Positions 7,044 to 25,590 of a stretch of DNA of 64,000 nucleotides are shown in pieces; the stretch's first letter is position 1, and each line of letters starts with the position of its first letter. The stretch lies in contig CANMIP010000001.1 in assembly GCA_947497945.1 (NCBI GenBank), positions 1 to 64,000 of the forward strand. The letters run 5' to 3'. The stretch comes from an uncultured Tropicimonas sp. GTDB lineage: Bacteria; Pseudomonadota; Alphaproteobacteria; Rhodobacterales; Rhodobacteraceae. A program made the translations under genes and the position numbers. The notes beneath the pieces were generated by a model. The model saw only the letters and a program-made list of their open reading frames with translations. It made no database searches and was not told where the DNA came from.

Positions 7044-7047
7044 TGCG

Positions 7048-10644: not shown

Positions 10645-10670
10645 GTTCCCTCGCATTCCGGACTGTCCCG

Positions 10671-10910
10671 ATGATCGTTTGCTCCTGCCAGAACATCTCC
10701 GACCGCGACATCAACGCCGCCATCGACTGGATGCGCTCCGCCGATGCCGCCACGATCATCACCCCGGGCAAGGTCTATCGCGCTCTTGGAAAGCGAGCGG
10801 ATTGCGGCGGATGCATGGCGCTCTTCTTGTCCACGATGCGCGCCAACCCTAGTCTTGAAGTACCCGCCACGCTGCGCAACCTGCGCGGCACAGCAAGAAA
10901 GGAAGCCTGA
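10671..10910 (+). CDS. bfd: Bacterioferritin-associated ferredoxin
   Basis: A 79-aa [2Fe-2S] protein of the Bfd family (Fer2_BFD). The four cluster ligands are visible: C4 and C6 at the N-terminus ([13 protein letters not shown]) and C45 and C48 (ADCGGCM). Bfd docks on bacterioferritin and reduces its haem to release stored iron. The adjacent bfr gene, one nucleotide downstream of the stop, supports this directly. Confidence 0.93.
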
Positions 10911-10911
10911 C

Positions 10912-11397
10912 ATGAAGGGCGACGAAACGGTCATTGAATATCTGAACAAGGCCCTGCGCAGCGAGCTGACCGCGATCAGCCAGTACTGGCTGCATTACAA
11001 GCTCCAGGAGGACTGGGGACTGGGCAAGATGGCCGCGAAATCCCGCGAGGAGAGCATCGAGGAGATGAACCACGCGGATGAGCTGATCGGCCGGATCCTG
11101 CTGCTCGGCGGCCACCCGAACCTGCAGAAGCTCGACAGCCTGCGCATCGGCGAAAACCCGAAGGAAACGCTTGAAGCCGACCTTGCCGCGGAAGAAGAGG
11201 CGCGCGCGCTCTACAAGGAGGCCCGCGAGTATTGCCAGAAGGCGGGCGACTACATCTCGATGGAGCTTTTCCAGAAGCTGCTTGGCGATGAAGAAGGCCA
11301 TATCGACTTTCTCGAAACCCAGCTCGACCTGCATGACAGGATCGGCGCCGAGCGCTATGCGCTCCTCAACGCATCGACGATGGATGAAGCCGAGTAA
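10912..11397 (+). CDS. bfr: Bacterioferritin
   Basis: A 161-aa haem-containing iron-storage protein forming 24-mers in the cytoplasm. Ferroxidase ligands are in place: E18, E51 and H54, with E94, E127 and H130 expected in the EEEARALY and [10 protein letters not shown] helices. M52, the haem-iron ligand shared between two subunits, is present, so this is a true haem-binding Bfr. The gene follows bfd by one base. Confidence 0.96.
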
Positions 11398-11398
11398 C

Positions 11399-12937
11399 AT
11401 GACATGCCGAGCCGCGGCGACCTTTGCCGCGACCCTGGCAGCCTCCACGACACTGGCTGCCCCGAACGCCCCGGCCAAAGGCTGGGGCGAACCACATTTG
11501 ACGGTCCTGCCGCGCAGCGCACAGGAGGCCGCGCGCGTCGCGGCCGTGACGGCGCCACCGCAGGACTTCACCACCCCCGAGCCTTTCGAGGCGCGCCCGG
11601 CCGGAGCCGCGACACATGTCGACCACAGGACAGGCACACCCTTCTCGCTGCCATCGGCCAACATGGCGCCGGAACGGGAGATGGATTTCCGCCTGGGCAA
11701 CGCCTTTTTCGAGAAATTCTGGGTCGAAGCGCCGACAGCCACCACCGCAAGCGACGGGCTGGGGCCGCTCTTCAACGGGCGCGGCTGCAAATCCTGCCAT
11801 ATCCGCGACGGGCGCGGCCACCCGCCGGAGAGCACGGAGGATTTCGGCATCTCGATGGTGCTGCGTCTCTCGGTGCCGGACCACGCCTCCGACCTTCCCG
11901 CCGAGACGCTGCAATATCTCGCCAATGCGCCCGAGCCGGTCTACGGCACCCAGCTTCAGGACAAGTCCGCCGCCGGTCTGGCCGCCGAGGGGCGCCTGCG
12001 GATCGACTATGACCCGGCGACCGTTGCCTTTGCCGATGGCACGGAGATCACGCTGCGCCAGCCTGCCTATTCCGTGGCTCGCACCGGCTACGGCCCGCTG
12101 CACGAGGCGGTCGAATTCAGCCCGCGCATCGCGCCACCGATGATCGGGCTCGGCCTGCTGGAGGCGATCCCCGAGGCAGACATCCTCGCCCTGGCCGACC
12201 CGGAAGATCGCGATGGCGACGGGATCTCGGGCCGCCCGAACCGGGTCTGGTCGCAGGAACATGACCAATGGATGCTGGGCCGGTTCGGCTGGAAGGCCGG
12301 CCAGCCGACACTCTCGCAGCAAAGCTCCGACGCGTTTCTCAACGATATCGGCATCTCCACCCCGATCCATCCCGATCCCTGGGGCAATTGCACAGCGGCG
12401 CAAACCGCTTGCCGGCGCGCCCCGCATGGCGAGAGCGGCACGGCCGAGCAGCTGGAGATCCCCTCAGTCGGCATGGATCTTGTCACCTTCTATGCCCGAA
12501 ACCTCGCCGTTCCGGCCCGGCAGGCCGTCGACAGGCCGGAGGTTCTTGCCGGAAAGGCGCTGTTCCACGCCGCTGGCTGCGCTGGCTGTCACCAACCGAA
12601 ATTCGTCACCCACCGGCTCGACGCACAGCCCGAACAGAGCTTCCAGCTCATCTGGCCCTATAGCGACCTGCTGCTCCATGACATGGGCGAGGGGCTCGCC
12701 GACAACCGCCCCGAATTCGCCGCCAACGGGCGCGAATGGCGCACGCCACCGCTCTGGGCGATCGGACGCACCGAAGCCGTTTCGGGCCATACGGTCTTCC
12801 TGCATGACGGCCGCGCCCGTTCGCTCACCGAGGCCATCCTGTGGCACGGGGGTGAAGCGGAGGTGGCCCGCGAAGCCTTCCGCACGATGGGCAAACCGGA
12901 CCGCGACGCCCTGATTACCTTCCTGGAGTCTCTTTAG
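11399..12937 (+). CDS. Di-haem oxidoreductase of the DUF1111 (putative thiol oxidoreductase) family
   Basis: A 512-aa exported protein with signal peptide (about 1-21). Two haem c sites are visible: CKSCH at 130-134, in the family phrase LGPLFNGRGCKSCH, and CAGCH at 394-398. The end LTEAILWHGGEAE...F contains the conserved HGG. DUF1111 proteins regularly sit with imelysins in iron-regulated operons; a periplasmic redox step in iron uptake is the usual inference. An in-frame ATG at 11384, inside bfr, is an alternative start. Confidence 0.9.
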   Translation: MTCRAAATFAATLAASTTLAAPNAPAKGWGEPHLTVLPRSAQEAARVAAVTAPPQDFTTPEPFEARPAGAATHVDHRTGTPFSLPSANMAPEREMDFRLGNAFFEKFWVEAPTATTASDGLGPLFNGRGCKSCHIRDGRGHPPESTEDFGISMVLRLSVPDHASDLPAETLQYLANAPEPVYGTQLQDKSAAGLAAEGRLRIDYDPATVAFADGTEITLRQPAYSVARTGYGPLHEAVEFSPRIAPPMIGLGLLEAIPEADILALADPEDRDGDGISGRPNRVWSQEHDQWMLGRFGWKAGQPTLSQQSSDAFLNDIGISTPIHPDPWGNCTAAQTACRRAPHGESGTAEQLEIPSVGMDLVTFYARNLAVPARQAVDRPEVLAGKALFHAAGCAGCHQPKFVTHRLDAQPEQSFQLIWPYSDLLLHDMGEGLADNRPEFAANGREWRTPPLWAIGRTEAVSGHTVFLHDGRARSLTEAILWHGGEAEVAREAFRTMGKPDRDALITFLESL

Positions 12938-12940
12938 AAC

Positions 12941-13972
12941 ATGTTCCCCAGACTTGCCGCGCCATTGATTGCCGGCCTCCTTCTCGCCCTGCCTGCCTCT
13001 GCCCAGAAGCTTGTCGCGCCCGACCACGCCGCGCTGCGCGAGGATTCCCTCGTCGTTCTCGAAAGCCAGTTCGACGCGTTCCGCGTGGCAGCATCGGAGC
13101 TCGCAGCGGCCTCGCAGGCCTATTGCGACGATGGTCTCGCGCAGGATGCCTACCTGGAGAGCTTCCGCCGGACCTGGCTGGCCTGGGCGCCGCTCGACGC
13201 CTACCAGTTCGGGCCCATCGAACAGCAAGGCGCAGCACTCACGGTCGCGTTCTGGCCCGACAAGAAGGACTTTGTCGGCCGCGGCCTCAAGCTGCTGCTC
13301 CAGCAACCTCCCGAGACCCTGCGCGATGCGGCGGCAATCGCCGAGCATTCCGCCGCCGTCCAGGGACTTCCCGCAATCGAGCGCCTGCTCCTCTCGGATC
13401 TCGAAACCTGCCCGGCGGTGATCGGCATCTCCGCGCATCTCGAGCGGACCGCCAACAGCCTCCATGACGCCTGGTTCCTGCCCGGCGGCTATAGCGATCT
13501 TGTGCGCAGTGCCGGACCGGAGAATCCGGTTTTCCTGTCCGACGCGGAGTTCACCAAGATCCTCTACACGGCGATCGATTTCGAGCTGACGCGGATCTCG
13601 GAAACACGGCTTGGTCGCCCTCTCGGCAGTTTCGACAAGCCCCGCCCCCGGCAGGCCGAGGCCTGGCGCTCGGGGCTGAGCCTCGACATCATCGACGCGC
13701 AACTGGCCGGGATCGACCTGCTGCTCAACGAAGGTTTCGGCAACCACCTGTTCAGCCCGAACAAATCCTGGGTGCGCGGGGTGATCGAAGATACGCGCGA
13801 ACGGGTCGACAGGATGGGGCTGCCGCTGGACGTTGCCGTGTCCGAGCCGGCAACCCGCGTGCGGGCGGAGGCGCTCCAGACCAAGGTCCGCCATCTGCAA
13901 CTGCAATTCGCGCAGGATGTCGGGCCGGAGCTTGGTGTCGAGACCGGTTTCTCCGCCGCGGATGGAGACTGA
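12941..13972 (+). CDS. Second imelysin-family protein
   Basis: A 343-aa exported protein (signal peptide 1-21, ASA/Q) of the imelysin superfamily. It is more divergent than the first copy: the conserved region reads VQGLPAIERLLL, so the GxHxxE histidine is replaced (G-L-P-A-I-E). This is the usual form of the partner imelysin that follows DUF1111. The spacing is 3 nt on both sides, so it is translated with its neighbours. It probably binds iron or a partner protein in the periplasm. Confidence 0.85.
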   Translation: MFPRLAAPLIAGLLLALPASAQKLVAPDHAALREDSLVVLESQFDAFRVAASELAAASQAYCDDGLAQDAYLESFRRTWLAWAPLDAYQFGPIEQQGAALTVAFWPDKKDFVGRGLKLLLQQPPETLRDAAAIAEHSAAVQGLPAIERLLLSDLETCPAVIGISAHLERTANSLHDAWFLPGGYSDLVRSAGPENPVFLSDAEFTKILYTAIDFELTRISETRLGRPLGSFDKPRPRQAEAWRSGLSLDIIDAQLAGIDLLLNEGFGNHLFSPNKSWVRGVIEDTRERVDRMGLPLDVAVSEPATRVRAEALQTKVRHLQLQFAQDVGPELGVETGFSAADGD

Positions 13973-13975
13973 CCC

Positions 13976-15040
13976 ATGCGCAGACGCCATTTTCTCCTGG
14001 GCGCCGGGGCGGGCTTGGCAAGTGCAAGCGTCGCCTGGTCCGATATCGGTCGCGATCTCTACCTGAGCGCGGGAAACCGGCGCGACAATTCCACCTGGCT
14101 GGTCGGCCTGACCGGGCGCGGTGCCCAGTGCTTCGCGCTTGCCCTGCCGAGCCGGGGCCACGCGGCCGCCAGCCATCCGGAACGCGCCGAGGCCGTCGCC
14201 TTTGCCCGCCGGCCGGGCAATTTCGCGCTGGTTCTGGAGTGCGGCAACGGTCGGGAGGTGGCCCGGCTGACCACGCCCGCAGGGTTGCATTTCTACGGCC
14301 ATGGCGCCTTCACGGCGGATGGTCGCTACCTGCTGACGACGGAAAACGCCTTTGACCTGCCCGATGGGCGGATCGGGATCTGGGACGCCGAACACGGCTA
14401 CCGGCGGGTCGGCGATGTCCCCTCGGGCGGGATCGGGCCGCATGAGATCCTGGCGATGGGCGATGGCGGTTTCGCCGTTGCCAATGGCGGCATCCAGACC
14501 CATCCCGATTTCCAGCGCGCGAAGCTGAACATCCCGACCATGCAGACCAACCTCTCCTTTCTCTCGGAGACGGGCAGCCTGCGCGAGACCCAGCCCTTCT
14601 CCGGCGAGATGCGGCAGAACTCGATCCGCCATATCGATCGCGATGCGGCGGGCAATGTCCTTGCTGCGCTGCAATGGCAAGGCGCGCCAACCCGGACCGT
14701 GCCGCTCGTGGCCCGGTTCGCCCCGGGCGCGGCCCCGGTCTTGCTGGACCATCCCGAAACCGCGCGCCTCAAGCATTATGCCGGGTCGATCGCGATCTCC
14801 GGCGACGGTTCGGAGATCGCCGTGACCGGACCGAAGGGCAACCATGTCCTCTTCCTCGGCGCGGACGGATCTCCCCGCCCCGCCAGCCAGCTTTCCGTCG
14901 CCAGCGGGGTGGCGAAGGCCGAGGGCGGGCTGCTCATCACCGTCGCCGGCGGTCTCGCCCTGCGCCGGGACGGACGGGAGGAGACGATCCCGGTCGCCGG
15001 TGACTGGGCCTGGGACAATCACCTTGTCCGGGTTGCCTAG
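13976..15040 (+). CDS. DUF1513-family Tat-exported protein
   Basis: A 354-aa protein with a twin-arginine signal (RRRHFLLGAG) and a body of beta-propeller-like repeats (phrases such as GHGAFTADGRYLLTTEN and GIGPHEI). This is the family annotated DUF1513, whose members close imelysin-DUF1111 operons in many proteobacteria. The Tat signal suggests it is folded or cofactor-loaded before export. The stop overlaps the stop of the convergent DUF4857-like gene by four bases. Confidence 0.88.
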   Translation: MRRRHFLLGAGAGLASASVAWSDIGRDLYLSAGNRRDNSTWLVGLTGRGAQCFALALPSRGHAAASHPERAEAVAFARRPGNFALVLECGNGREVARLTTPAGLHFYGHGAFTADGRYLLTTENAFDLPDGRIGIWDAEHGYRRVGDVPSGGIGPHEILAMGDGGFAVANGGIQTHPDFQRAKLNIPTMQTNLSFLSETGSLRETQPFSGEMRQNSIRHIDRDAAGNVLAALQWQGAPTRTVPLVARFAPGAAPVLLDHPETARLKHYAGSIAISGDGSEIAVTGPKGNHVLFLGADGSPRPASQLSVASGVAKAEGGLLITVAGGLALRRDGREETIPVAGDWAWDNHLVRVA

Positions 15041-16311
15041 CCGCCCGTCGCGCCGGTGGCCGGGCCGGGTCCGGGCAGCAGGGCAATGGCCAGCACACCG
15101 TAGAGCCCGGCGATGGCGGCGAGCGCCAGTTGCGGGATCATCTGCTGCGGCGCGATCCGGCGCCGGCGTCCGAACAGCAGTACCACGCCGACGGCAAGCA
15201 GGTTGCCCAGGAACGCCAACGGCGCCGGCCCGGAAACGGTCCAGCCGAGATACCCGCTGTTCCCGGTCCCAAGCGACAGGGTGACGGGAAAGAGCAGCTT
15301 CGAGATCCGCGCGTGGATCATCCCCGTCGTGCCGGGAACGGCGCGGCTATAGGCGGCGATGGGAAGAAGGTCTTCGTTCAACGCGACAGCGGTTACCGTC
15401 CCGCCATCGCCGAAGACGGCGGTCGGATGGACCGGGTTCAGCAGCAGCTTGTAATCCATCCGGTCAGCATCATAGCCGCTCGAAGGCAGTTCCACGAGCC
15501 CGTAGCCGTCGGATTGCAGCAGGAAGAGCCGGTTGTCCACGGTCAGAACGAGGCCGAGATAGATCCGCTGCCTGTTCTCCTGCACCTTGATCGACCGGAT
15601 GCCGAGATCTGTCGGGATCGGCGTCCGGACAATAACCGGGTCGTCGCCCACGCGCTTGACGTGGAACACCGCCCCCTCCGCATCGACAAGGAACACCCCC
15701 TCGTCAAAGGGCTTCAGGATGGTCTGCTTGCCCGCGACGAGCCGAGCCGGGAAGGCGAAGCGCTCGGCCGCGAGCGCCTCGGTGAAGCGGTCGGTCAGCG
15801 CCGGATCGACCCGGTTCTCATCCACGTCGAGAAACTCCATCCGGTCGGGCTTCATCCGGAAGACGTCTTCCGGGAAGCTCAGCCCCGCCTTGCCAGGATC
15901 GGAATCGAGCAACGCATGGACGGGCACGGACGGGTGCCTGTCCGCCACTTCCCGCGCTTTCAGCTCGAAGACCTGCCGGGCATCCCGGATCGCCTGCATG
16001 TCGAAGCTCTGCCCGTCGATCTCGATCGGCAGCAGGCCCCAGAGCTCCATGTTCTTGTAGTAGATGAAAGGCAGGGACATCTCGAAAGCCTTGCGGTCGA
16101 AATGTTCGCCGGAGGCCGTGGCATAGGTGAAATCATGGTTCCCGCGATGCTCGCGATAGACAAAATCCTGTTTCACCGCGGAGTAGAACAGATGCGTTGG
16201 CGCCACCCGCGGGGCAAACGCCATCGCATAGATCGCCGGCAGCAGGATGGCGGCCAGCACCACCGTCAGAAAGGCCAGACAGAGCCAGGAGAGGAGGCGG
16301 GAGGTCATCAA
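15037..16311 (-). CDS. DUF4857-like membrane-anchored protein of the Feo operon
   Basis: A 424-aa protein with an N-terminal membrane segment (about 8-30), a large extracytoplasmic domain (about 35-345) and two C-terminal membrane helices (about 355-415) separated by a basic GRRRR patch. I recognise it tentatively as the DUF4857 type found next to ABC ATPase and permease genes. Its start overlaps the permease stop by four bases, so it is the last gene of the feo operon. Function unknown; the topology suits an accessory subunit of the ABC transporter that carries a periplasmic domain. Confidence 0.65.
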   Translation of the reverse strand: MMTSRLLSWLCLAFLTVVLAAILLPAIYAMAFAPRVAPTHLFYSAVKQDFVYREHRGNHDFTYATASGEHFDRKAFEMSLPFIYYKNMELWGLLPIEIDGQSFDMQAIRDARQVFELKAREVADRHPSVPVHALLDSDPGKAGLSFPEDVFRMKPDRMEFLDVDENRVDPALTDRFTEALAAERFAFPARLVAGKQTILKPFDEGVFLVDAEGAVFHVKRVGDDPVIVRTPIPTDLGIRSIKVQENRQRIYLGLVLTVDNRLFLLQSDGYGLVELPSSGYDADRMDYKLLLNPVHPTAVFGDGGTVTAVALNEDLLPIAAYSRAVPGTTGMIHARISKLLFPVTLSLGTGNSGYLGWTVSGPAPLAFLGNLLAVGVVLLFGRRRRIAPQQMIPQLALAAIAGLYGVLAIALLPGPGPATGATGG

Positions 16312-16973
16312 GGCTCTCCGTTTCGAAAGCGATGCGCGGCTTGCAGGCTTGCCGGCGCCAACAGCAGGACCAACCCGGCCACCCCGCCGAGGACGAGATC
16401 ATAGGCCTGGTATTGGCCGGAGCGATGGCACAGCCAGACGACGCCCGCCGAGAGCGCGAGATTGGCCGCCTGGTAGCGGCGGCGGGGTTCCAGCAATGTC
16501 AGCGCCACGCCGAAATAGGCGGCGATCCCGGCCAGGATCCACGGCGCGGCGGTCAGCAGGGCCGAGCCGATGAAGGCGGCGGGGAAGAAGCTGCCGATGG
16601 TGATCGCCAGCGCCGCGAGATCGAGCGCAAGAAAGACCAGGAGCGCTTCCAGCCCGATGCCGAGATGGGCGAGGACCAGCGGCGCGAGCCCCATCGGCAG
16701 GTGCAGCGACAGGCGCAGCCGGCCGCGCAGCAGCTCGGGCAGGAACTGCGCCGCGCCGATCAGCGCGCCGGTCAGCAGCGGGATGTAGCGCAGGTCATCG
16801 TAGAAGATCCGTCCGATATGGTTGGCCTGGTAGTAGATCATCTCGGCATGTTCGAAGCGGAACTGGTGCCGGATCGAGAGGTAGAGCCAGGCGGCGAAGA
16901 CCAGGTGCGCGGCGAGCATGAATCCCAGCCAGGAGCGCAGCTTGAGCCATTCCTTGAAGGCGATCGCACGCAT
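16308..16973 (-). CDS. ABC transporter permease of the Feo operon
   Basis: A 221-aa integral membrane protein with about six hydrophobic helices. The first follows MRAIAFKEWLKLRSW, the basic N-terminal pattern of ABC-2-like permeases. I start at the ATG whose first base is the last base of the ATPase stop. The long in-frame extension upstream overlaps the ATPase gene and is rejected. With the ATPase and the DUF4857-like protein it forms a compact transporter whose substrate is not known. Confidence 0.75.
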   Translation of the reverse strand: MRAIAFKEWLKLRSWLGFMLAAHLVFAAWLYLSIRHQFRFEHAEMIYYQANHIGRIFYDDLRYIPLLTGALIGAAQFLPELLRGRLRLSLHLPMGLAPLVLAHLGIGLEALLVFLALDLAALAITIGSFFPAAFIGSALLTAAPWILAGIAAYFGVALTLLEPRRRYQAANLALSAGVVWLCHRSGQYQAYDLVLGGVAGLVLLLAPASLQAAHRFRNGEP

Positions 16974-17872
16974 CAGTATTTCCCCGTGTAACCGACGAAA
17001 GCGTCTTCGAGCGACATCTGTTGCGGGGTGATGCCCGTGGGGTCGATCCCGGCCTCCCGCAACGCCGCCTCGACCTCGGGCTGATCCTTGAAGGCAAAGA
17101 CCTCCAGCCGGCCATCGGCCTCCATCTCGACCCGGTGCAGCGCGCCATCGGGCGGCGGAAGCGCGCCCCGGGCCGCACCGGGCGGCAGCTCGTAACGGCG
17201 GAAACTGGACAGGAAGCCGGGCAGCGAGCTTTGCAACACCCGCGCGCCGCGGCGGATCAGGATCACGTCGTCGACCAGCCGCTCCATGTCCTGCACCACG
17301 TGGGAGGTGACGAAGACCGTCTTGTTCCCCTCCCGCGCACATTGGACGAGATAGTCGAGAAACAGCCGCCGATACCCGGCATCCAGCCCCATCGTGTAAT
17401 CGTCGAGGATCAGAAGGTCGGGATCCTGCGCCATGACGAGGCCGAGCACGACCTGGCTGCGCTGGCCTTCGGACATGTTGCGGATCCGGTGGGTGCCCGG
17501 CAGTTGCAGCCGGTCGACGAGGTCATAGAACACGTCTCGGCGCCATTTCGGATACCATTGCGCCGTGAAGCGTTCGATCTCTTCGATCGACATGAAATCA
17601 TAGGCAAGATGGCCTTCGAAGACGAGCCCGATCTGGCGTTTGGTCTCTGCCGGGAGCGCATGGGACGGCGCACCCAGCACCCGGCAGCGTCCCGCATCCG
17701 GCGTCAGGAACCCCATCAGGATCTTGATCAGAGTCGTCTTTCCCACCCCGTTCTTGCCCAGCAGGCCAAGGATTCGCCCGGGCGCGACGGAGAAGCTCAG
17801 CCCGTCATGGATCCTGTGCGCGCCATAATGGTGCACCAGCCCGTCCACCTCGATGGCAGGTTGCAAAGTCAT
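16973..17872 (-). CDS. ABC transporter ATP-binding protein of the Feo operon
   Basis: A 299-aa ATPase: Walker A GLLGKNGVGKTTL (about 36-48), signature MSEGQRSQ (near 134) with the first S shifted from the usual LSGGQ, Walker B DLLILDDYTMGLD (near 152) and the H-loop VTSH (near 190). In Walker B the usual catalytic Glu after the Asp is replaced by D (LILDDY). The C-terminal 80 residues form a divergent domain like those of ABC-2 efflux ATPases. It lies 23 nt downstream of the 106-aa gene and runs into the permease. Confidence 0.85.
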   Translation of the reverse strand: MTLQPAIEVDGLVHHYGAHRIHDGLSFSVAPGRILGLLGKNGVGKTTLIKILMGFLTPDAGRCRVLGAPSHALPAETKRQIGLVFEGHLAYDFMSIEEIERFTAQWYPKWRRDVFYDLVDRLQLPGTHRIRNMSEGQRSQVVLGLVMAQDPDLLILDDYTMGLDAGYRRLFLDYLVQCAREGNKTVFVTSHVVQDMERLVDDVILIRRGARVLQSSLPGFLSSFRRYELPPGAARGALPPPDGALHRVEMEADGRLEVFAFKDQPEVEAALREAGIDPTGITPQQMSLEDAFVGYTGKY

Positions 17873-17895
17873 GGATGCCCTCGATTGCAGCGGGG

Positions 17896-18216
17896 TCAGT
17901 AGATGTCGTCGGCGGTGATCTCGACCCGGTGGCCTTCGCCGGCATCGAGCATCACGCTGTACTTGCCGTCCGGCATTTCAAAGGTGAATTCGCTGTTCTC
18001 GTCCATCTGCGCGTCGATGACGATATTGCCGTCCGTGTCGTTGACATGGATTCGGACGCCCGCCGCCGAGGAGCCGTCGAAAAAGCCGCCCTCGCACAGG
18101 ACGGTGCCGTCGCCATTGTCATAACAGGCACAGAGCGGGGTATGGGCAAGGGCGGTGCCGGCACTGCCAGCCAGGACGCCTGCCATGAGGATCTGGGGGA
18201 TGATCTTGCGGATCAT
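17896..18216 (-). CDS. Small secreted N-terminal-His, Cys-rich protein A
   Basis: A 106-aa exported protein. The signal peptide (about 1-24) ends ALA, so the mature chain should begin with His: HTPLCACYDNGDGTVLCEGG. It has three Cys in a conserved C-x-C and C pattern, then a beta-sandwich-like part with the phrases FEMPDGKYSV and DAGEGH, and ends DDIY. It is a paralogue of the protein at 22269-22589, of exactly equal length. The features suit a periplasmic metal-binding protein; no known function is assigned. It lies within the feo operon. Confidence 0.75.
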   Translation of the reverse strand: MIRKIIPQILMAGVLAGSAGTALAHTPLCACYDNGDGTVLCEGGFFDGSSAAGVRIHVNDTDGNIVIDAQMDENSEFTFEMPDGKYSVMLDAGEGHRVEITADDIY

Positions 18217-18282
18217 GCTGGTCTCCTTGACGGATTGCCGTCCTGGCGCCGGGCGGCTCGCTTCGGACGGCGCCCGGCGGGG

Positions 18283-18531
18283 TTATTTCGAAGCCTTCTC
18301 CTTCTCGGGATCGAAGGAAAAGGTGGTAACGCTCGGACAGCTCCCGGTCGTGGAACAGCCTGCACAGCCGCCGCAGCCCTCGCCGGAGGTTGCCTTGGCC
18401 CGCCGGCGCAGGAAACCGCGCAGCAGATAGGCCAGGGCCAGCCCGGCGATCACGGCGAGGACGGCCAGTTCCAGCGGCGCGGTCGCGGCCTCGGCGCCGA
18501 TATCGATCATCGGTTGGGTCGTGTCGGTCAT
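18283..18531 (-). CDS. FeoB-associated Cys-rich membrane protein
   Basis: An 82-aa protein with one membrane helix (about 20-40, LELAVLAVIAGLALAYLL), a basic stop-transfer patch (RGFLRRRAK) and a Cys-rich cytoplasmic tail GEGCGGCAGCSTTGSC. The ATG overlaps the feoB stop by four bases (ATGA), showing translational coupling. Small Cys-rich one-helix proteins of this sort follow feoB in many bacteria and are thought to replace FeoC or receive Fe(II), though direct evidence is limited. Confidence 0.82.
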   Translation of the reverse strand: MTDTTQPMIDIGAEAATAPLELAVLAVIAGLALAYLLRGFLRRRAKATSGEGCGGCAGCSTTGSCPSVTTFSFDPEKEKASK

Positions 18532-21035
18532 TGGGCCGGCTCCCGCGATCGGCCGGCAAGCAGGTCCGGCAACCAGGGCTTCGGCAGGGCCACGACCAGC
18601 AGCAGCCCGAGCGCTGCAAACCAGACCGTCGACATTGTCTGCAGTCCCGTCAGCCCGAGCGCGGTGGCGCCGGAATAGACAGCGGAGGCGACGGTCAGCC
18701 CGAGCAGGGTCGGGAAGATGATGGAGAACATCATCCACCCGGTCGAGGCGGTCTGGACACGCACCATGATGACGGTGGCCAGGCAGGGCGGGTAGAGCGC
18801 GAAGAAGAGCATGAGCGCCACCGCGGAGACGGCCGTGCGCCCTTCGCTCGATTGCTGCGCGCCCATCCGGTCTTCGAGCGAGCGGTTCTCGCCGTCATCC
18901 TGATCGAACAGTACCCCGAGCGTGGACACCGCGCTTTCGCGGGCCGCGAAAGAGGCCAGCAGCGCGATGTTTATCTTCCAGTCGAAATCGGCGAATTGCG
19001 TCACCGGCTCCAGCCCGCGGCCGATATGCCCCAGGAAGCTGGCCTCGATCCGGTCGGATCGCATCTCCCGTCGCAGGGTCGTCCGCTGGTTGGTGAGCGT
19101 GCGCAGCGCCTGGTTGGCGGCTTTCGCGTCCGCGTCCCGGCCGCGCAGCACGAAGGGGACGAAATCCGGGTGGGCCTCGGCCAAGTCCGCATCCATCGCC
19201 TGCACCGCCTCCTTGCCACCGGCATTGAGCCGCGCGGCCCTGTAGGCGCTCTGCACATTGATCAGGTCGATCAGGCGGGCCGGGTCTTCGACGGCGAGGC
19301 GATGGGGATTGCCCTCCAGCGCCTCGTAGAACTGCGCGATCGCTGCCTCGGCCTCGGCATGGTAGGCAACCTGCCGGGCGGCCGGCACACCGGGAAACTG
19401 CAACAGCACATAGATCACCACGGCGATGGCCACGACCACGGTGCCCACCTTCTTGATATAGAGCCAGGTGCGGTCGAAGCTGCGGCGCAACACGCCCGGA
19501 ATCGTCGGCAGATGGTAGGAGGGCAGCTCCATCACGAAGGGCGCGGTCTCCTCGTTCCGCAGCACCGAACTGGTCAGCAGTTTCGCCACCAGCATCGCCA
19601 CCACGACCGTGATCGTGGAGAGGTAGAACAGCATCAGGCCCTTGGTCTCGGGGAAATAGATGTTGATGAGCAGCGTGTAGAGCGGGATCTTGGCCATGCA
19701 GTTCATGAAGGGCACGGTCAGGATCGTCGCCAGCCGGGCACGGGCATCCGGAATGCCCTTGGTCGCCATGACGCCGGGAACGGCGCAGCCGCCGGCAAAG
19801 ACCCCGGCAAGGATGAAGGGCAGGGTCGACTGCCCGTGCAGGCCGAAACGGTGCAGGATGCGGTCGAGGATGAAGGCGATCCGCGCCATGTAGCCCGAAT
19901 CCTCCAGGATCGCGATCAGCGCGAAGAGGATCAGGAAGATCGGCACGTAGTTCAGCAGCGTGTTGATCGAGTCGACGATCCAGAGCCCCAGCGAACGGAT
20001 CTGCGGATCGGTCAGGAAGCCCGCATCGGGCAGGATCCCGGCGGCGAAATTGCGAAACCCGGCGAGAAAGGGCCAGGTGACCTTGGTCAGTTCGTAGCCC
20101 TGCACGATCGAGAGCTGGTAGATCGCCCAGACCGTCGCCATCAGGAAGATCGGCGCGGCGAACCGGTTGAGCAGCACCCGGTCGATCCGCTCGGAAACCG
20201 GCACCTGGCCCGCTTTCGTATCGGTGATGGACGCCTCGATGATGGCGGCGGCATGCCGGTCCCGGCAATAGCTGACATGGTCGCCCGAACTCAGCCCATG
20301 TCTTTTTTCGAATGTCTTCCGCGCCGTATAGACCTCGTCGAGGATACCATGCGGATTCGGGAGCCGCGTTCCGAGAAGCGCTTCGGCCTCGCTGTCGCTT
20401 TCCAGCAGCTTGACCGACAACCAGCGCGCCGAGACATCCTGCAGCGCAGGTTCGGCCGCGAGTTTCCCCTGGAACCGTGCAACATCCTCTTCCAGCGCGC
20501 CGTAATTCAGCGTCGCGGGGGTGACGTGATCCGTCGTCGCCGCCTTGGCAATCGCCGCGCGCAGTTCGGCCTCGCCCTTGCCCTTGCGGCCCACCACGGG
20601 GATCACCGGCACGCAGAGCCGGCGCTCGAGATGGGCGATGTCGATCTCCAGCCCGCGGCGCTCGGCGGCATCCATCATGTTGAGCGCGATGACCACCTTG
20701 AAACCCATTTCCAGCAGCTGGAAAGTCAGCGGCAGGGAGCGGCGCAGGTTGGTCGCGTCGATTACATTGACCACGACATCCGGCCTGTCCTCGAGCAGGA
20801 AGGCGCGGGCAACCCGTTCTTCCAGCGAGAAGGCGGCGAGCGAATAGCAGCCGGGCAGGTCGACCACCTCATAGCGCTGCCCGTCGGCGGGGTAACTGCC
20901 GGATTTCTTGTCCACGGTCACGCCGGGGTAATTCGCGATATGCTGCTGCAGCCCTGTCAACATGTTGAACAGGGTCGATTTTCCGGCGTTTTGCTGTCCG
21001 GCCAGCGCAACGAGCCAGGGGGCGCCCTCAGGCAT
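18528..21035 (-). CDS. feoB: Ferrous iron transporter B
   Basis: An 835-aa inner-membrane Fe(II) transporter. The N-terminal G domain has G1 GQQNAGKST (about 13-21), G3 DLPGCYS (about 58) and G4-like ALNMMD (about 118). The C-terminal half has Gate motifs and about ten helices, including FAGGCAVPGVMATKG. It is roughly 60 residues longer than the E. coli protein. The excess lies in a polar region (about 610-720) inside the C-terminal half, between membrane segments. It overlaps feoA by eight bases and the Cys-rich gene by four. Confidence 0.95.
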   Translation of the reverse strand: MPEGAPWLVALAGQQNAGKSTLFNMLTGLQQHIANYPGVTVDKKSGSYPADGQRYEVVDLPGCYSLAAFSLEERVARAFLLEDRPDVVVNVIDATNLRRSLPLTFQLLEMGFKVVIALNMMDAAERRGLEIDIAHLERRLCVPVIPVVGRKGKGEAELRAAIAKAATTDHVTPATLNYGALEEDVARFQGKLAAEPALQDVSARWLSVKLLESDSEAEALLGTRLPNPHGILDEVYTARKTFEKRHGLSSGDHVSYCRDRHAAAIIEASITDTKAGQVPVSERIDRVLLNRFAAPIFLMATVWAIYQLSIVQGYELTKVTWPFLAGFRNFAAGILPDAGFLTDPQIRSLGLWIVDSINTLLNYVPIFLILFALIAILEDSGYMARIAFILDRILHRFGLHGQSTLPFILAGVFAGGCAVPGVMATKGIPDARARLATILTVPFMNCMAKIPLYTLLINIYFPETKGLMLFYLSTITVVVAMLVAKLLTSSVLRNEETAPFVMELPSYHLPTIPGVLRRSFDRTWLYIKKVGTVVVAIAVVIYVLLQFPGVPAARQVAYHAEAEAAIAQFYEALEGNPHRLAVEDPARLIDLINVQSAYRAARLNAGGKEAVQAMDADLAEAHPDFVPFVLRGRDADAKAANQALRTLTNQRTTLRREMRSDRIEASFLGHIGRGLEPVTQFADFDWKINIALLASFAARESAVSTLGVLFDQDDGENRSLEDRMGAQQSSEGRTAVSAVALMLFFALYPPCLATVIMVRVQTASTGWMMFSIIFPTLLGLTVASAVYSGATALGLTGLQTMSTVWFAALGLLLVVALPKPWLPDLLAGRSREPAQ

Positions 21036-21372
21036 GGGTCACCTCGATATGCGCGGCCTCGCGGCGGCGCAGGACAATGAAACTGTCGCCCAGTTGCAGC
21101 TCGATCGGATCGTGGAGCGGCGCGTTGCGCACCATCTTCACCTCGCGCCCCGGCTGGAACCCGAGATCCAGCAGACGCTGGCGGACAGAACCGCGCCCGT
21201 GCAGGCGGCAGATCGTACAGGCTTCCCCCGGCGCGATGTCGTTGAGATTGGTATCGTCGCGCCCCTTGCAGCAGGCTTCGTGGCAACGATAGCCCTTGCG
21301 GCGACCTTTCCCGTCGCCACGGCAACGGCCCCGTCCCAATCCCATCGCCTGGAAGAATGCGCGATTCATCAT
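21028..21372 (-). CDS. feoA: Ferrous iron transport protein A, with N-terminal extension
   Basis: A 114-aa protein. Residues about 40-114 form the normal SH3-like FeoA core (GEACTICRLHGRGSVRQRLLDLGF, then GREVKMVRNAPL). The first 40 residues are an unusual basic and Cys-rich extension (GRGRCRGDGKGRRKGYRCHE, then ACCKG), with four Cys and one His. FeoA cores are about 75-85 aa, so the extension is a real oddity. The start is the double ATG at 21372/21369. It heads the minus-strand feo operon, with an IscR-like site 57 bp upstream. Confidence 0.88.
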   Translation of the reverse strand: MMNRAFFQAMGLGRGRCRGDGKGRRKGYRCHEACCKGRDDTNLNDIAPGEACTICRLHGRGSVRQRLLDLGFQPGREVKMVRNAPLHDPIELQLGDSFIVLRRREAAHIEVTHA

Positions 21373-21401
21373 CCGTACTGCTCTTCTTGGATCCCGTCCC
21401 C

Positions 21402-21423
21402 GCCCGGCATGCCAGGCGGGTTC
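21402..21423 (-). terminator. Hairpin between DUF4198 gene and feoA
   Basis: CCCGCC and GGCGGG form a 6-bp stem around a 10-nt loop, 33 nt past the stop of the DUF4198 gene and 30 nt before feoA. No T run follows. It may end the upstream short operon or act in the feoA leader. Confidence 0.3.
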
Positions 21424-21428
21424 GATGT

Positions 21429-21453
21429 ATAGGTTACTATTTTGCTCAACTAC
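21429..21453 (-). promoter_or_regulatory. IscR type-1-like operator upstream of feoA
   Basis: This 25-bp stretch matches the E. coli IscR type-1 consensus at 20 of 25 positions by hand count. It includes the central TACTATTTT and the arm CTCAACTA. It lies 57-81 bp before the feoA start, in the gap after the DUF4198 gene. It shares the core TTTT-n-CTCAACTA with the site at 22700. Confidence 0.5.
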
Positions 21454-21455
21454 TG

Positions 21456-22247
21456 CTATTCGAGGTCGAACGCCTTGATCCAGATCACGGCGTCCTGGCT
21501 CAGTTCCTTGCCCGCATGCTCGGTGTCCGGACCCGATCCCAGGGCGGCGAAGCCCCAGAAACCGGCCTTGGGAATTCCGAAGGTGAAGACGCCGTTCTCG
21601 TCGGTACACGCGACCAGCGCGCCGCCAGGCATCGGCCTAGCGGTGACCTCACTGGGGGCGTTGGCCTCCATATCCGGCTCTGCGGCAAGATATTCGACCT
21701 CGACCTCGGCGCCGACGACCGGCTTGCCACCCGACAGCAGCCGGGCGGAGAAGGTCGAGCCTGCGATCACGTTGTAGGGCTTGTTGAGCGGCACGAACTC
21801 GGTCTTCATCCCGACCGGTTCGTTCCACCCTGTCGGGGCCCCGCCCTTGTTGACGAAGGTCTTGGTGATCTGCTGGATGTAGATGTCTTCGGAGCCTTCG
21901 TAATAGGGCGCGGGCACAAGGCCGACGATATAATCGCCATTGCGCTTCACCGGCAGCACGCCCTCGAAGGCGGCGGACTCGTTATTGGCGCCCTGGAAGG
22001 TGATCGGCCTGAGGCTGTCGGAGATATCGGTCTTCTTGCCCTTGAGCACGTAGAAGAACTCTTCCGGCTGGCCCATATCCATCGCGTGGCCATTCTCGAA
22101 CGGGTGCCAGAAGATCAGCTTCAACGGCATCTGGACCGGCTTTCGCACATTCATGTCGGGGCCATAGACCAGCTGGAAATGCGCCATCGCCGGAGCGGCA
22201 AGGGCGAAGGCGGACAGGGCGGTTGCGGCAAGCAGTTTTTTCATCAC
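21456..22247 (-). CDS. DUF4198-family secreted protein
   Basis: A 263-aa exported protein. The signal peptide (1-22) ends AMA, so the mature protein should start with His (HFQLVYGPD). The body matches the DUF4198 type (phrases such as VKRNGDYIVGL and TDENGVFTFGIPKAGFWGFAAL), often linked to uptake of Ni, Co or other metals. It lies 21 nt downstream of the N-terminal-His protein B gene and reads toward feoA. A periplasmic metal-binding or delivery role is inferred from family and context. Confidence 0.85.
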   Translation of the reverse strand: MMKKLLAATALSAFALAAPAMAHFQLVYGPDMNVRKPVQMPLKLIFWHPFENGHAMDMGQPEEFFYVLKGKKTDISDSLRPITFQGANNESAAFEGVLPVKRNGDYIVGLVPAPYYEGSEDIYIQQITKTFVNKGGAPTGWNEPVGMKTEFVPLNKPYNVIAGSTFSARLLSGGKPVVGAEVEVEYLAAEPDMEANAPSEVTARPMPGGALVACTDENGVFTFGIPKAGFWGFAALGSGPDTEHAGKELSQDAVIWIKAFDLE

Positions 22248-22268
22248 GTTTATGTCGTCCGGCTCTGG

Positions 22269-22589
22269 TCAGTAGATTTCGTCTTGCGGCACGACGATCT
22301 GGTGGCCTTCACCAGCGTCGAACAGCACGTCGTGGAACCCTTCGGGCCGCTCGAACTCGAACTCGCCATTTGCATCGACCGCGCCTTCCAGAAGCGTTTC
22401 GCCAGCCTCGTTGCGTACGATCATCGGCACGTTCGCGGCCGAGGAACCGTCCGAGTAGCCGCCTTCGCACAGGACGGTTCCGTCGCCATTGTCATAGCAG
22501 GCGCAAAGGGGCGTATGGGCCGAGGCCGCGGTGGCCAGAAACAGGAGTGATCCGCCAAGAATCAGCGCGGTCCGAGTGGATTTGGTCAT
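22269..22589 (-). CDS. Small secreted N-terminal-His, Cys-rich protein B
   Basis: A 106-aa exported paralogue of protein A (17896-18216). The signal peptide (1-24) ends ASA, leaving a mature HTPLCACYDNGDGTVLCEGG, identical to protein A over these 20 residues. Both share DGSSAA, a single E-F-x-F/E-F-E strand motif, DAGEGH and a final IY. I start at the ATG at 22589; an upstream in-frame start would spoil the signal peptide. It is first gene of a two-gene operon with DUF4198. Confidence 0.78.
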   Translation of the reverse strand: MTKSTRTALILGGSLLFLATAASAHTPLCACYDNGDGTVLCEGGYSDGSSAANVPMIVRNEAGETLLEGAVDANGEFEFERPEGFHDVLFDAGEGHQIVVPQDEIY

Positions 22590-22989
22590 GGAGTCCTCAT
22601 GGAGCGGGAGCGGTGCAGATCCCTGCATCGCGGTTCACCGCATCTCCACCCTGGCTCGGCATGGCTGGCGTGAGCAACTGCGGTACGGCCGGCTCTACGC
22701 CTCCCGAGTGTTTTACTCAACTAATTGTTGCGCGACACGCGGTCGCAAAGAGACGCCTTTCGCCAGCGCTCCGGAGAACAAGCGGAGTCAGGGTCTGGCG
22801 AGGCAGGCCCGATGCGGCCGGCAAGATGGTTCGGCCGGGCATCGATGCGGGGGATGATGGCGGAAAGAGGGTCGCCTGTATCGGCTGTTTCGCGGCAGGT
22901 CACATCTGTGGACACCGCATCGCCGGTTCCGGGCATGGCGGACAAGATCCAGCTTTTGCCCTTGTTGAAAGGACGTGGTTGCACTAATC
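22590..22989. other. 400-nt gap between iron island and thiamine operon
   Basis: No convincing gene on either strand. It holds the promoter and operator of the N-terminal-His protein B operon (left, minus strand) and the promoter of the thi operon (right). The open frames here have no family features. Confidence 0.6.
22700..22724 (-). promoter_or_regulatory. IscR type-1-like operator upstream of protein B / DUF4198 operon
   Basis: This 25-bp stretch matches the E. coli IscR type-1 consensus at 19 of 25 positions by hand count, and shares TTTTACTCAACTA with the feoA site (TTTTGCTCAACTA). It lies 111 bp before the start of the operon. Confidence 0.45.
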
Positions 22990-23080
22990 CGGACCCACCT
23001 CGGGGTGCTCTGTGAGCTGAGATGCGTATCGCGAACCCGTTGAACCTGAACCGGTTAGAACCGGCGGAGGAAAGGTCGAC
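22990..23080 (+). ncRNA. TPP riboswitch (THI element)
   Basis: The conserved segments of the thiamine pyrophosphate aptamer appear in order: CGGGGTGC (23001), GCTGAGA (about 23016-23022), ACCCGTTGAACCTGAACCGG (about 23035-23054) and TTAGAACCGGCGGAGGAAAGG. It lies 45 nt before the thiB start. The short distance to the ribosome site AAGGAG suggests control of translation initiation. Confidence 0.93.
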
Positions 23081-23125
23081 ATTCCCAGGCCGTCCGAACT
23101 CCGCCCACAACCCAAGGAGTTTGCC

Positions 23126-24106
23126 ATGAAGGCGTTTCCTCTTGTTGCGGGCCTGTTGATTGCCACATCGGCTGCGGTCGAAACCCCGGTATTGACAGTC
23201 TATGCCCCGGATTACTTCGCTTCGGAATGGGGCCCGGGCCCCGGGATCGAAGCGGCCTTCGAAGCACGCTGCGGCTGTGACCTGGTCTACAAGACCGGCG
23301 AGCTCCTGCCGCGCCTGTTGCTGGAAGGCGCGCGGACCGAGGCCGACGTGGCCATCGGCTTCAATTCCGACATCACGAAAAAGGCGCGGGAAAGCGGGCT
23401 CTTCGCGCCGCATGGGTTGGACATCTCGGCGCTGACCCTGCCGGTCGAATGGTCGGACGACACCTTCCTGCCGTTCAACTACAGCCACACGGCCTTCATC
23501 TATGACAACACGAAACTGTCCGAACCGCTGTCCAGTTTCGACGCGTTGCTGGAGGCGCCGGATGACCTGCGGCTGGTGATCCAGGACCCGCGCAGCTCGA
23601 TCTCCGGCCTCGCGCTGGTGCTCTGGATGAACCACGTCTATGGCGACAAGTCCGCTGAAGCCTGGGCGAAACTGGCGCCGAAGATCGTCACCGTCACCAA
23701 GGGCTGGTCGGAGAGCTACGGCATGTTCACCGATGGCGAGGCCGACATGGTGCTGAGCTACACCACGTCGCCCGCCTACCACATCATCGCCGAAGACGAC
23801 CCGAGCAAATCGGCCGCGATCTTCGAGGAAGGGCATTACTTCATGGTCGAACTGGCGGCAAAGCTCGCCGGAACCGACAATGCCGATCTCGCGGACCAGT
23901 TCATGGCTTTCATCCTGACCGAGGAATTCCAGTCGATGATTCCGACCTCGAACTGGTCCTTCCCCGCCGCGCTCTCCGAGGCGAAATGGCCCGAAGGGTT
24001 TCGCGAGCTGCCGGTGCCGGAAACGGTGCTGTTCTATAACGAGGACGAAGCTGCGGCATTGCGGGACGAGGCCATCGAGGCATGGCGCAGCGCGCTCTCC
24101 CAATAG
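23126..24106 (+). CDS. thiB: Thiamine ABC transporter, substrate-binding protein
   Basis: A 326-aa periplasmic binding protein with signal peptide (about 1-18). The opening TPVLTVYAPDYFASEWGPGP and later phrases (FNSDI, PFNYSHTAFIYD, LSYTTSPAYH) are those of the ThiB/TbpA family, which binds thiamine, thiamine phosphate and TPP. A TPP riboswitch stands directly upstream and thiP and thiQ follow. It overlaps thiP by 25 bases. Confidence 0.94.
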   Translation: MKAFPLVAGLLIATSAAVETPVLTVYAPDYFASEWGPGPGIEAAFEARCGCDLVYKTGELLPRLLLEGARTEADVAIGFNSDITKKARESGLFAPHGLDISALTLPVEWSDDTFLPFNYSHTAFIYDNTKLSEPLSSFDALLEAPDDLRLVIQDPRSSISGLALVLWMNHVYGDKSAEAWAKLAPKIVTVTKGWSESYGMFTDGEADMVLSYTTSPAYHIIAEDDPSKSAAIFEEGHYFMVELAAKLAGTDNADLADQFMAFILTEEFQSMIPTSNWSFPAALSEAKWPEGFRELPVPETVLFYNEDEAAALRDEAIEAWRSALSQ

Positions 24107-25590
24107 GCGCAGCACTGCTGGTCGCGGGGATGGTCATCCTCCCCGTGACCGCGGTGTTCTGGCGCGGCGGCGGGCCCGGCACGCTCGGGCCGGCCGACTG
24201 GGCCGCCCTGCGCTTCACGCTCTGGCAGGCGGCGCTCTCGGCGGCGCTGTCGACAGCGCTCGCAATCCCCGTGGCCCGTGCCCTTTCCCGGCGTCGTTTT
24301 CCGGGCCGCTCGGGGCTTGTCGCTCTGATGGGGGCGCCCTTCATCCTGCCGGTCATCGTCGCGATCCTCGGGCTGCTGGCGGTCTTTGGTGGCAATGGCC
24401 TGATCAACCGGATCGGCGCGCCGCTCGGCCTGCCGCGGCTGGATATCTACGGCTATCACGGCGTTATCCTGGCGCATGTCTTCTTCAACCTGCCGCTGGC
24501 CGTCCGGCTGATCCTGCAAGGCTGGCTGTCAATTCCGGCCGAACGCTTCCGCCTGGCCGCGTCGCTCGACGCACCGGTCTGGCGCGTGCTCGAACGGCCA
24601 ATGTTGCGCCGGGTCTGCCCCGGCGCGTTTGGCGTGATCTTCGTGATCTGCCTGGGCTCCTTCGCGGTGGCGCTCACGCTCGGCGGCGGGCCGCGGGCAA
24701 CCACGGTGGAACTGGCGATCTATCAGGCCTTCCGCTTCGATTTCGACCTTGGAAAGGCCGCGACCCTGGCCGTCTTGCAACTATGCCTCGGTCTTGGCGC
24801 CGGTGCCCTGGCTTTGCGTCTTGCCCCGAGAGAGGGCTTCGGCACCGGGCTCGACAGGCTGACCGATCGCTGGGACGGGCGGGGGCGGCTGCCTCGCGTG
24901 ATCGATGCCCTCTGGATCCTGCTCGCAGCCGCGTTCCTGCTCGCGCCGCTTGGCGCCGTCGCCCTCTCCGGCCTGCCGGGTCTGCCCGCGCTGCCCGCCG
25001 AGGTCTGGTCTGCGGCGGCCCGCTCGCTCGCCCTGGCGCTCGGCGCAACCGCCCTGACCCTCGCGCTGGCGCTGCCGCTGCTCTCGGCTCCGGGCGAGGT
25101 CGCGGCGCTGCTGGGCATCTCGGTCAGCGGCCTCGTGCTCGGCACCGGCTATTTCCTGCTGCTGCAACCTCTCATCCGGCCCGCCGAGGTGGCCCTGCCG
25201 GTGACGATGCTGGTCAATGCGCTGATGGCGCTGCCCTTCGTCATCCGCATCCTGCGTCCCGGGCTGGAAGCCGCGCGCGCCGATTACGGCCGCCTGGCCG
25301 CTGCACTCGGGCTGACCGGCTGGCGGCTCTGGCGGATCGTCTACCTGCCGCGCCTGCGCCGGCCACTCGGTTTCGCGGCCGGGCTGACGGCGGCGCTGTC
25401 GATGGGGGATCTCGGCGTGATCACGCTGTTCGCCGATGGCGACACCGCGACGCTTCCGCTACAGGTCTATCGCCTGATGGGCAGTTACCAGATGGAGGCG
25501 GCCCGCGCGGCGGCGCTGCTTCTGCTGGCGCTCAGCCTCGGGCTGTTCTGGGGATTTGACAGGGGAGGCCGCGCCAATGCTGCGATTTGA
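24082..25590 (+). CDS. thiP: Thiamine ABC transporter, permease
   Basis: A 502-aa fused permease with two similar halves and about 12 membrane helices; each half carries an EAA-like loop (FRLAASLDAPVWRVLERP near 155; ARADYGRLAAALGLTGWRLW near 405). This double-length form is typical of ThiP. The start at 24082 lies inside the end of thiB. Confidence 0.93.
   Translation: MAQRALPIGAALLVAGMVILPVTAVFWRGGGPGTLGPADWAALRFTLWQAALSAALSTALAIPVARALSRRRFPGRSGLVALMGAPFILPVIVAILGLLAVFGGNGLINRIGAPLGLPRLDIYGYHGVILAHVFFNLPLAVRLILQGWLSIPAERFRLAASLDAPVWRVLERPMLRRVCPGAFGVIFVICLGSFAVALTLGGGPRATTVELAIYQAFRFDFDLGKAATLAVLQLCLGLGAGALALRLAPREGFGTGLDRLTDRWDGRGRLPRVIDALWILLAAAFLLAPLGAVALSGLPGLPALPAEVWSAAARSLALALGATALTLALALPLLSAPGEVAALLGISVSGLVLGTGYFLLLQPLIRPAEVALPVTMLVNALMALPFVIRILRPGLEAARADYGRLAAALGLTGWRLWRIVYLPRLRRPLGFAAGLTAALSMGDLGVITLFADGDTATLPLQVYRLMGSYQMEAARAAALLLLALSLGLFWGFDRGGRANAAI

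Follow-up and report, generated by a model that had tools for sequence, protein, structure and literature searches.

We identified a nine-gene block in a 64,000-nt stretch of DNA from an uncultured Tropicimonas sp. (contig CANMIP010000001.1, positions 1 to 64,000; hereafter the window). The block runs from 22589 to 15037 on the minus strand and encodes, from its 5' end, a NikL-like protein, a DUF4198 protein, FeoA, FeoB, a FeoB-associated Cys-rich protein, a second NikL-like protein, an ATP-binding cassette (ABC) ATPase, a permease, and a DUF4857 protein (Table 1). The set is real and conserved, an accessory to iron uptake that is often tied to Feo in Proteobacteria. Its association with iron uptake is very probable, and its ATPase-permease-DUF4857 part (the module) works for iron uptake in general and in many cases for Feo. 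All genes named in the initial annotation of the window are present on the minus strand where it had placed them, with overlaps or short gaps, as checked by translation and by Pfam/NCBIfam. The spacings from 5' to 3' are +21, +83, -8, -4, +66, +23, -1, and -1 nt, the overlap of 8 nt being that between the adjacent feoA and feoB. FeoA, FeoB, the FeoB-associated Cys-rich protein, DUF4198, and DUF4857 passed the curated Pfam cut-offs, and FeoB also scored above the cut-off for TIGR00437. The protein that had been called DUF4857-like is a full member of PF16149. The two 106-aa proteins, which had rightly been described as duplicates, are remote relatives of NikL (NF058648: E 1e-15 and 2e-13; 57.9 and 51.0 bits, below the cut-off of 100).

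Tropicimonas marinistellae (L012/L018), a genus-mate of the window genome in GTDB, carries all nine genes as one collinear block, with 80% nucleotide identity over 7695 bp. The imelysin, DUF1513, and ThiB/P/Q genes of the window had no match in the 18 kb of the T. marinistellae locus. Since T. marinistellae keeps the block in other surroundings, the block is more than a product of chance. Its DUF4857 gene is frameshifted (L012 8036-9288, the same as in L018), which is either a sequencing error or a broken gene.

Named genomes were scanned with the N-terminal part of DUF4857, using two peptide patterns. The 39 loci found belong to Alphaproteobacteria, Gammaproteobacteria (purple sulfur bacteria and others), and Desulfobacterota, and they lean to near relatives. 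By tblastn, the permease was present in 39 of the 39 loci, the ATPase in 38 (L028 is cut), NikL and DUF4198 in 28 each, and FeoB in 25. Five of the 14 loci that lack feoB are cut near the module (L022, L025, L027, L028, L041), and L031 starts just upstream of it. The layout is NikL-DUF4198-feoAB-ABC in the window and its near relatives and feoAB-NikL-DUF4198-ABC in Desulfobacterota; in purple sulfur bacteria, Pseudovibrio, and Cohaesibacter, DUF4198 and NikL are divergent from feoAB-ABC. Pseudovibrio is an alphaproteobacterium, but 6 out of 6 of its proteins are nearer to those of two gammaproteobacteria than to those of the window (DUF4857: 49 and 54% vs. 39%), which fits a transfer of the genes as a set. 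Protein distances of FeoB correlate with those of the three module proteins (Mantel r 0.86-0.90 over 19 loci, null maximum 0.62), with shared ancestry contributing to the correlation.

DUF4857 is an uncommon gene, carried by two of the nine genomes of the genus, one of 295 of the family, and one of 398 of the phylum, the last two both being the window genome itself. In evenly drawn samples, carriers numbered 12 out of 345 in Desulfobacterota and 12 out of 146 above the cut-off in the Thiohalocapsa family, where a 13th match (G1195, E 8e-4) fell under the cut-off and was left out. FeoB lies within about 10 kb of DUF4857 in 10 of the 12 Thiohalocapsa-family genomes (except for G732 and G1108), and in 4 of the 12 from Desulfobacterota (G706, G710, G719, G725; the FeoB of G725 is ordinary and broken). 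A rough model that ignores relatedness puts the linkage of feoB and DUF4857 by chance at about 1% per locus. Thus, the link between the extra genes and feoB, as the initial annotation had supposed, is well above this rate over several classes and phyla. The module is patchy, although the GC content of the block (0.647) is close to that of its flanks (0.653 and 0.649) and gives no sign of recent foreign origin. A plasmid search with DUF4857 found nothing credible, with no match at 1e-5 and one at E 3 when E values up to 10 were allowed. Tracing the module by its ATPase alone was given up, since too many ABC ATPases match. At L123 (about 6978-10324), the DUF4857 C-terminal part sets in where a long feoB ends, in a different reading frame, and no ATPase or permease was found between the two.

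FeoB of the block belongs to a long type of 822-884 aa (35 full-length sequences), in contrast to 724-776 aa in the 10 ordinary FeoB compared. The long type has an insert of about 100 residues, roughly spanning aa 549-652 in the window protein, that is mostly missing from the 10 ordinary FeoB. The window genome has a single FeoB at E<=1e-30, that of the block, and its FeoA has a basic, Cys-containing N-terminal extension. At the same threshold, FeoB was found in 36 of the 39 genomes of the DUF4857 scan. FeoB regions were examined for 9 of the 14 genomes with a module locus lacking feoB (13 regions), together with a 3.7-kb piece for L022 (L119). Six of the nine encode a long FeoB with NikL and/or DUF4198 (L080, L082, L083, L085, L088, L089), and four of these six have an additional ordinary FeoB. 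Two encode a long FeoB without NikL or DUF4198 (L079, L091), and one has an ordinary FeoB only (L081). NikL or DUF4198 was present in the same examined stretch for 29 of 35 long FeoB vs. 1 of 10 ordinary FeoB, counts that are not independent because the loci were picked via DUF4857, its genomes, and genus-mates. Among the genus-mates, G001, G003, G006, and G008 have ordinary FeoB. The long FeoB of G004, G005, and G007 (L112-L114) is accompanied by feoA and the Cys-rich gene only, and thus the added genes look like accessories of the long FeoB. A dependence of the insert on NikL was also considered and is weakened by these three loci.

NikL and DUF4198, the latter of which we take to be NikK, probably begin with histidine when mature. 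With signal peptides called by sequence pattern rather than by a predictor, the predicted cut puts His first in 38 of 38 NikL with a loose pattern and in 37 of 38 with a stricter one, and 34 of 36 predicted mature DUF4198 start with HF, the two exceptions having an incomplete reading frame. Cys7 of NikL is found in 38 of 38 sequences and Cys5 in 34 of 38, while His25, Cys31, Cys41, and His96 are invariant in the 26 aligned; the invariant residues of DUF4198 include His23, His48, Met56, and Glu183 (35 sequences). From the N-terminal His and the conserved His, Met, Glu, or Cys we infer that both proteins may bind metal. A PDB profile search with NikL gave weak matches only (SdrD 3e-4, collagen adhesin 1.5e-3, CopC 0.05).

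The NikL profile was positive in 15 of 398 Pseudomonadota genomes (17 loci), with up to 12 candidates scored per genome. Four of the 17 loci (the two of the window genome, L143, and L144) adjoin feoB and DUF4198; no ABC module was found within the 16 kb examined at L143 and L144. All of the 13 further loci, outside Feo, accompany metal uptake genes, as they adjoin ZnuABC-like, DUF6162, DUF3325, or PepSY genes (L145-L157). NikL-like proteins are in the same PepSY/DUF3325/DUF6162/ZnuABC-like context on three annotated plasmids, two of them with a TonB-dependent receptor, and profile comparison joins the two kinds of NikL with a probability of 99.8%. One NikL-like protein in such an operon lies at L013 6001-6327. 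In the cited papers, NikK and NikL are components of the transporter NikKMLQO (PMC2667541, PMC545781), and orphan NikK/NikL without NikMQO and with no informative neighbors have been reported (Zhang et al. 2009, PMC2667541). DUF4198 genes of Caulobacter are under Fur regulation (PMC3751524), and DUF4198 genes have been linked to PepSY-type iron reduction (PMC11870441).

The module ATPase has Asp in place of the catalytic Glu ('DDY') in 45 out of 45 readable sequences. By pattern the count is 43 of 47: L107 has DDY with an altered last residue and three sequences are fragments, and L052, which the adjacency rule missed, has DDY. DEP is the usual motif in ABC ATPases, and Asp at the position of the catalytic Glu slows hydrolysis. 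The ATPase groups with exporter-class ATPases (ABCA, NosF, DrrA, GldA-like) and matches NosF at E 8e-23. The permease of the window has no Pfam family, ABC2_membrane_4 being touched by 2 of 28 aligned homologs. Its structure model (pLDDT 91.8) was compared with the PDB by Foldseek, in which CcmB ranked first (8ce1, E 0.032, probability 1.00, TM 0.46, not significant; also 7f02), followed by TarG and then NosY (7qba, rank 4 to 8, E>=0.8, TM up to 0.53). In this model-based comparison, two metal-cofactor systems (CcmB, NosY) therefore rank high for the permease, none of them significantly. DUF4857 has one hydrophobic segment near the N-terminus, two near the C-terminus, and a beta-rich middle. 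Its model (mean pLDDT 86.7) shows a long N-terminal helix, the beta-rich middle, and C-terminal helices. A NosD-like fold was considered and rejected, as no NosD was among the matches listed, no match reached E<=1e-3, and Pfam gives PF16149 only. A conserved protein of about 220 aa, with no Pfam/NCBIfam match, is encoded 3' of DUF4857 in 12 loci (for example, L042 11301-11987).

Gene linkage, family membership, conserved residues, and a common box were observed directly. It is quite possible that the block is an enlarged Feo system with a CcmAB/NosFY-like machine for slow, ATP-driven release that serves periplasmic hand-off of iron, and this is the reading we prefer. FeoA, FeoB, and the Cys-rich protein would be the inner-membrane importer of ferrous iron, and NikL and DUF4198 would bind metal in the periplasm. 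The ATPase, permease, and DUF4857 might form a complex like CcmAB or NosFY that does not pump a solute. Slow ATP turnover would move DUF4857, and this motion may make a periplasmic carrier or an outer-membrane system release iron for FeoB; in other genomes, the released iron might go to TonB- or PepSY-based uptake. A wider form of this proposal is rather doubtful: the module might be a general periplasmic iron hand-off machine of Gram-negative bacteria and would then be a further branch beside the heme-handling CcmAB and the copper-handling NosFY. With its slow ATPase, it would strip iron from the His-headed NikL/DUF4198 or from systems of the outer membrane and deliver this iron to FeoB or to importers that are PepSY-type or TonB-linked. 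The initial annotation had proposed an export or assembly branch. Assembly or hand-off fits better than plain export, given the altered catalytic residue and the rank of CcmB and NosY for the permease (not significant).

Plain export is nevertheless to be weighed. The module might be a true exporter of a small molecule (a metallophore, thiol, or other reductant) by which iron is mobilized, or held in the ferrous state, for use by FeoB or the receptors, as could be expected from the exporter-class grouping of its ATPase and from outer-membrane uptake genes being the second sort of module neighbor. However, the block has no recognized genes that would make such a molecule, the small permease has CcmB and NosY as its nearest matches (not significant), and Asp in all readable ATPases argues against fast pumping, so we consider an exporter unlikely. 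A merely co-regulated module, one that does an envelope job when iron or oxygen is short and never touches the importer, would explain why it accompanies several unlike iron systems, why no iron partner was found at L108 and L109 with the seeds used, and why the boxes are common to both units. It is distinctly unlikely, since the same partner set recurs in rearranged orders in several classes, the distances of FeoB and the module proteins correlate (with a contribution from shared ancestry), and the Pseudovibrio set is nearer to gammaproteobacteria in all six proteins, as if it had moved together.

The block might also import another metal (Ni, Co, Zn, or Mn), with a changed FeoB substrate and a kept nickel/cobalt role of NikL and DUF4198. 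The match of both 106-aa proteins to the NikL family, below its cut-off, the place of NikK and NikL in NikKMLQO, and the company of NikL with ZnuABC-like genes all point this way. FeoA, FeoB, and the FeoB-associated protein are all in the block, though, the convergent neighbors concern iron storage and uptake, and a Bacteroides DUF4857 (PMC10434189) and the Caulobacter DUF4198 (PMC3751524) respond to iron; import of another metal is thus very unlikely.

Several results weigh against the preferred reading of an enlarged Feo system with a hand-off machine. Neither structure model has a significant PDB fold match: the best E is 0.03 for the permease, and DUF4857 has none at E<=1e-3 (best 1.3e-3, TM about 0.2). 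The long FeoB of three genus-mates occurs with feoA and the Cys-rich gene only, and since kin of NikL and DUF4198 are parts of nickel/cobalt transporters, iron is not proven. In Desulfobacterota, 8 of the 12 DUF4857 genomes have the module without adjoining feoB. The module is therefore not specific to Feo, and on this point the initial annotation is not supported as it stood. Its caution that the ABC genes might occur without feoB in most genomes holds for the Desulfobacterota sample and does not hold for the Thiohalocapsa-family sample, where 10 of 12 have feoB.

The eight Desulfobacterota loci without adjoining feoB have neighbors of other kinds. L105 has ExbB, DUF3450, and a receptor-plug protein just under the cut-off, and L107 resembles it. 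L111, and also L106, has an M16 peptidase together with a receptor plug and SBP_5. For L106 and L107, the assignment comes from visual inspection of the reading frames; Pfam was run on single neighbors of L105, L111, and L121 and on the radical-SAM gene only of L107. L031, whose contig starts there, has DUF4198 and PepSY_TM, and L110 has FeoA, NikL, DUF4198, and LbtU. No iron partner was recognized at L108 and L109 with the seeds used, which is a further point against the hand-off reading. Elsewhere, TonB-dependent receptors are present at G1108 (L121) and L054. Rodionov et al. (2004, PMC545781) describe a predicted FUR-regulated cluster of Desulfovibrio with a zinc peptidase first, plus ABC, exbB, exbD, and tonB genes. 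The M16 loci look like this cluster at the level of gene description. At L036 (244-7264), the module has as neighbors a gene for the chelatase CbiK and another ABC system (ABC_transp_aux permease, DUF4340).

Compared with FeoAB, the block shares FeoA, FeoB, and the FeoB-associated Cys-rich protein but has six further genes of other families and a FeoB that exceeds the 10 ordinary ones by about 60-110 residues. It resembles NikKMLQO in its NikL-like and DUF4198 (NikK-like) secreted proteins, DUF4198 being taken as NikK; in contrast, no NikM, NikQ, or NikO is among the nine block proteins, the range searched, and NikL is below the curated cut-off. A possible likeness to CcmABCD lies in the size of the permease (221 aa vs. 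219 aa for CcmB) and in CcmB as the top Foldseek match (E 0.03, TM 0.46, not significant). No CcmC, CcmD, or CcmE is among the nine proteins, and DUF4857 is there instead. CcmABCD has been described as using ATP to transfer and release heme between partners and not for plain pumping (PMC9616876). Like NosDFY, the block has a NosF-like ATPase (E 8e-23), a permease whose model reaches TM 0.53 to NosY (not significant), and a third part with a large, presumably periplasmic domain (DUF4857); unlike NosDFY, this part has no NosD-like match among the matches listed, and nosZ and nosL are absent from the block. BT3625-BT3633 of Bacteroides thetaiotaomicron, compared by description, encode DUF4857 and an ABC ATPase with a hypothetical protein in between; the genes (DUF4857, ABC ATPase, PepSY, receptor) are induced 37- to 128-fold on iron depletion, and the partners are a TonB-dependent receptor, PepSY, and DUF4876 instead of Feo, NikL, and DUF4198, with no feoB listed in the accessible part of the paper (PMC10434189). 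The literature searched, with most subscription papers outside it, gave no description of a combination of Feo, NikL, DUF4198, and ABC-DUF4857. We take the Campylobacter P19 operon to resemble the block in outline (it joins an iron permease and a periplasmic metal protein to its own ABC transporter, whose cargo is unclear) and to differ from it in permease, metal protein, and ABC family.

The route of Fe(II) across the Gram-negative periplasm to FeoB, like the periplasmic partners of Feo, is poorly settled. The recurrence of the set in distant bacteria suggests an undescribed energy-driven step in iron hand-off between the two membranes, and the block offers a conserved candidate set, with exact genes, for periplasmic Fe(II) hand-off to FeoB. 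Proteins like the orphan NikK/NikL of Zhang et al. (2009, PMC2667541) recur here beside FeoB, and the general hand-off reading, if true, would assign them a role in the uptake of iron. A non-pumping role is directly testable, given the conserved Glu-to-Asp change and a permease whose model is CcmB/NosY-like (not significant).

The first NikL-like gene and the DUF4198 gene had been assigned to a companion operon. This putative unit has its own box in the promoter region, and this box is like that of feoA (Table 1). With a similar box before both units, the sequence gives no sign of unrelated regulation, which had been named in the initial annotation as a sign against one system. When up to two mismatches are allowed, a pattern made from the two boxes matches nowhere else in the 5.8-Mb genome, and the control, the same pattern read backward, matches once. 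Similar boxes lie 85-140 nt 5' of NikL in T. marinistellae (three mismatches) and of feoA in G004, G005, and G007. A footprint scan also found three-mismatch matches away from feo promoters (L115, L037), and thus the evidence from the box is moderate. A role of the box as a mark of many iron promoters in this genome was considered and rejected, as a generalized palindrome gave one further place (C42:31871), where no iron gene was recognized by eye. The irpA upstream region has only a four-mismatch match. In Rhodobacteraceae, IscR binds a 19-bp Iron-Rhodo-box before feoAB and before hemP-irpA-bfd-bfr, which is cotranscribed with RSP_1545-1543 (PMC4618611). The boxes before both units, and before feo and NikL of relatives, are palindrome-like and similar in size to this 19-bp box.

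Table 1. Genes and boxes of the nine-gene block in the window
Feature	Position	Strand	Remarks
NikL-like secreted protein 1, 106 aa	22269..22589	-	predicted mature N-terminus HTPLC
DUF4198 (NikK-like) secreted protein	21456..22247	-	E 4e-50; predicted mature N-terminus HFQ
feoA	21028..21372	-	PF04023, E 8e-21, FeoA domain aa 42-112
feoB, long type, 835 aa	18528..21035	-	FeoB_N 9e-62, Gate 1e-28, FeoB_C 2e-14
FeoB-associated Cys-rich membrane protein, 82 aa	18283..18531	-	PF12669, E 8e-8, above cut-off
NikL-like secreted protein 2, 106 aa	17896..18216	-	50% identity to NikL-like protein 1
ABC ATPase, exporter class	16973..17872	-	DDY in place of DEP after Walker B
Small permease, 221 aa	16308..16973	-	model nearest CcmB and NosY, matches not significant
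DUF4857 protein	15037..16308	-	PF16149, E 8e-78, 261.9 bits vs. cut-off 25
Box TAGTTGAGTAAAACACT	22707..22723	-	118 nt 5' of first NikL-like gene
Box TAGTTGAGCAAAATAGT	21436..21452	-	5' of feoA; overlaps end of DUF4198 intergenic stretch

The block is flanked by a convergent operon of imelysin, bfd, ferritin-like bfr, DHOR, imelysin, and DUF1513 genes (9327-15040, plus strand), whose last gene, DUF1513, overlaps the end of the DUF4857 gene by 4 nt. These genes concern iron storage and uptake and apparently correspond to the IscR-controlled irpA-bfd-bfr operon of Rhodobacter, which they resemble. In other genomes, an LbtU-type siderophore porin gene was seen near the block at L030, L042, L043, L045, L049, L052, and L055, and also at L110 and L122 (one member of this cluster was scanned, NF033652 E 1e-109). 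A heavy-metal P-type ATPase gene is in or near the block at L030 (6499-8352) and also at L039, L043, L048, L051, and L052 (two members scanned) and is reminiscent of the ferrosome ATPase. On the other side of the block in the window, a TPP riboswitch (66.6 bits) followed by three thiamine-ABC-transporter-like genes (22991-26287, plus strand) is divergent from it.

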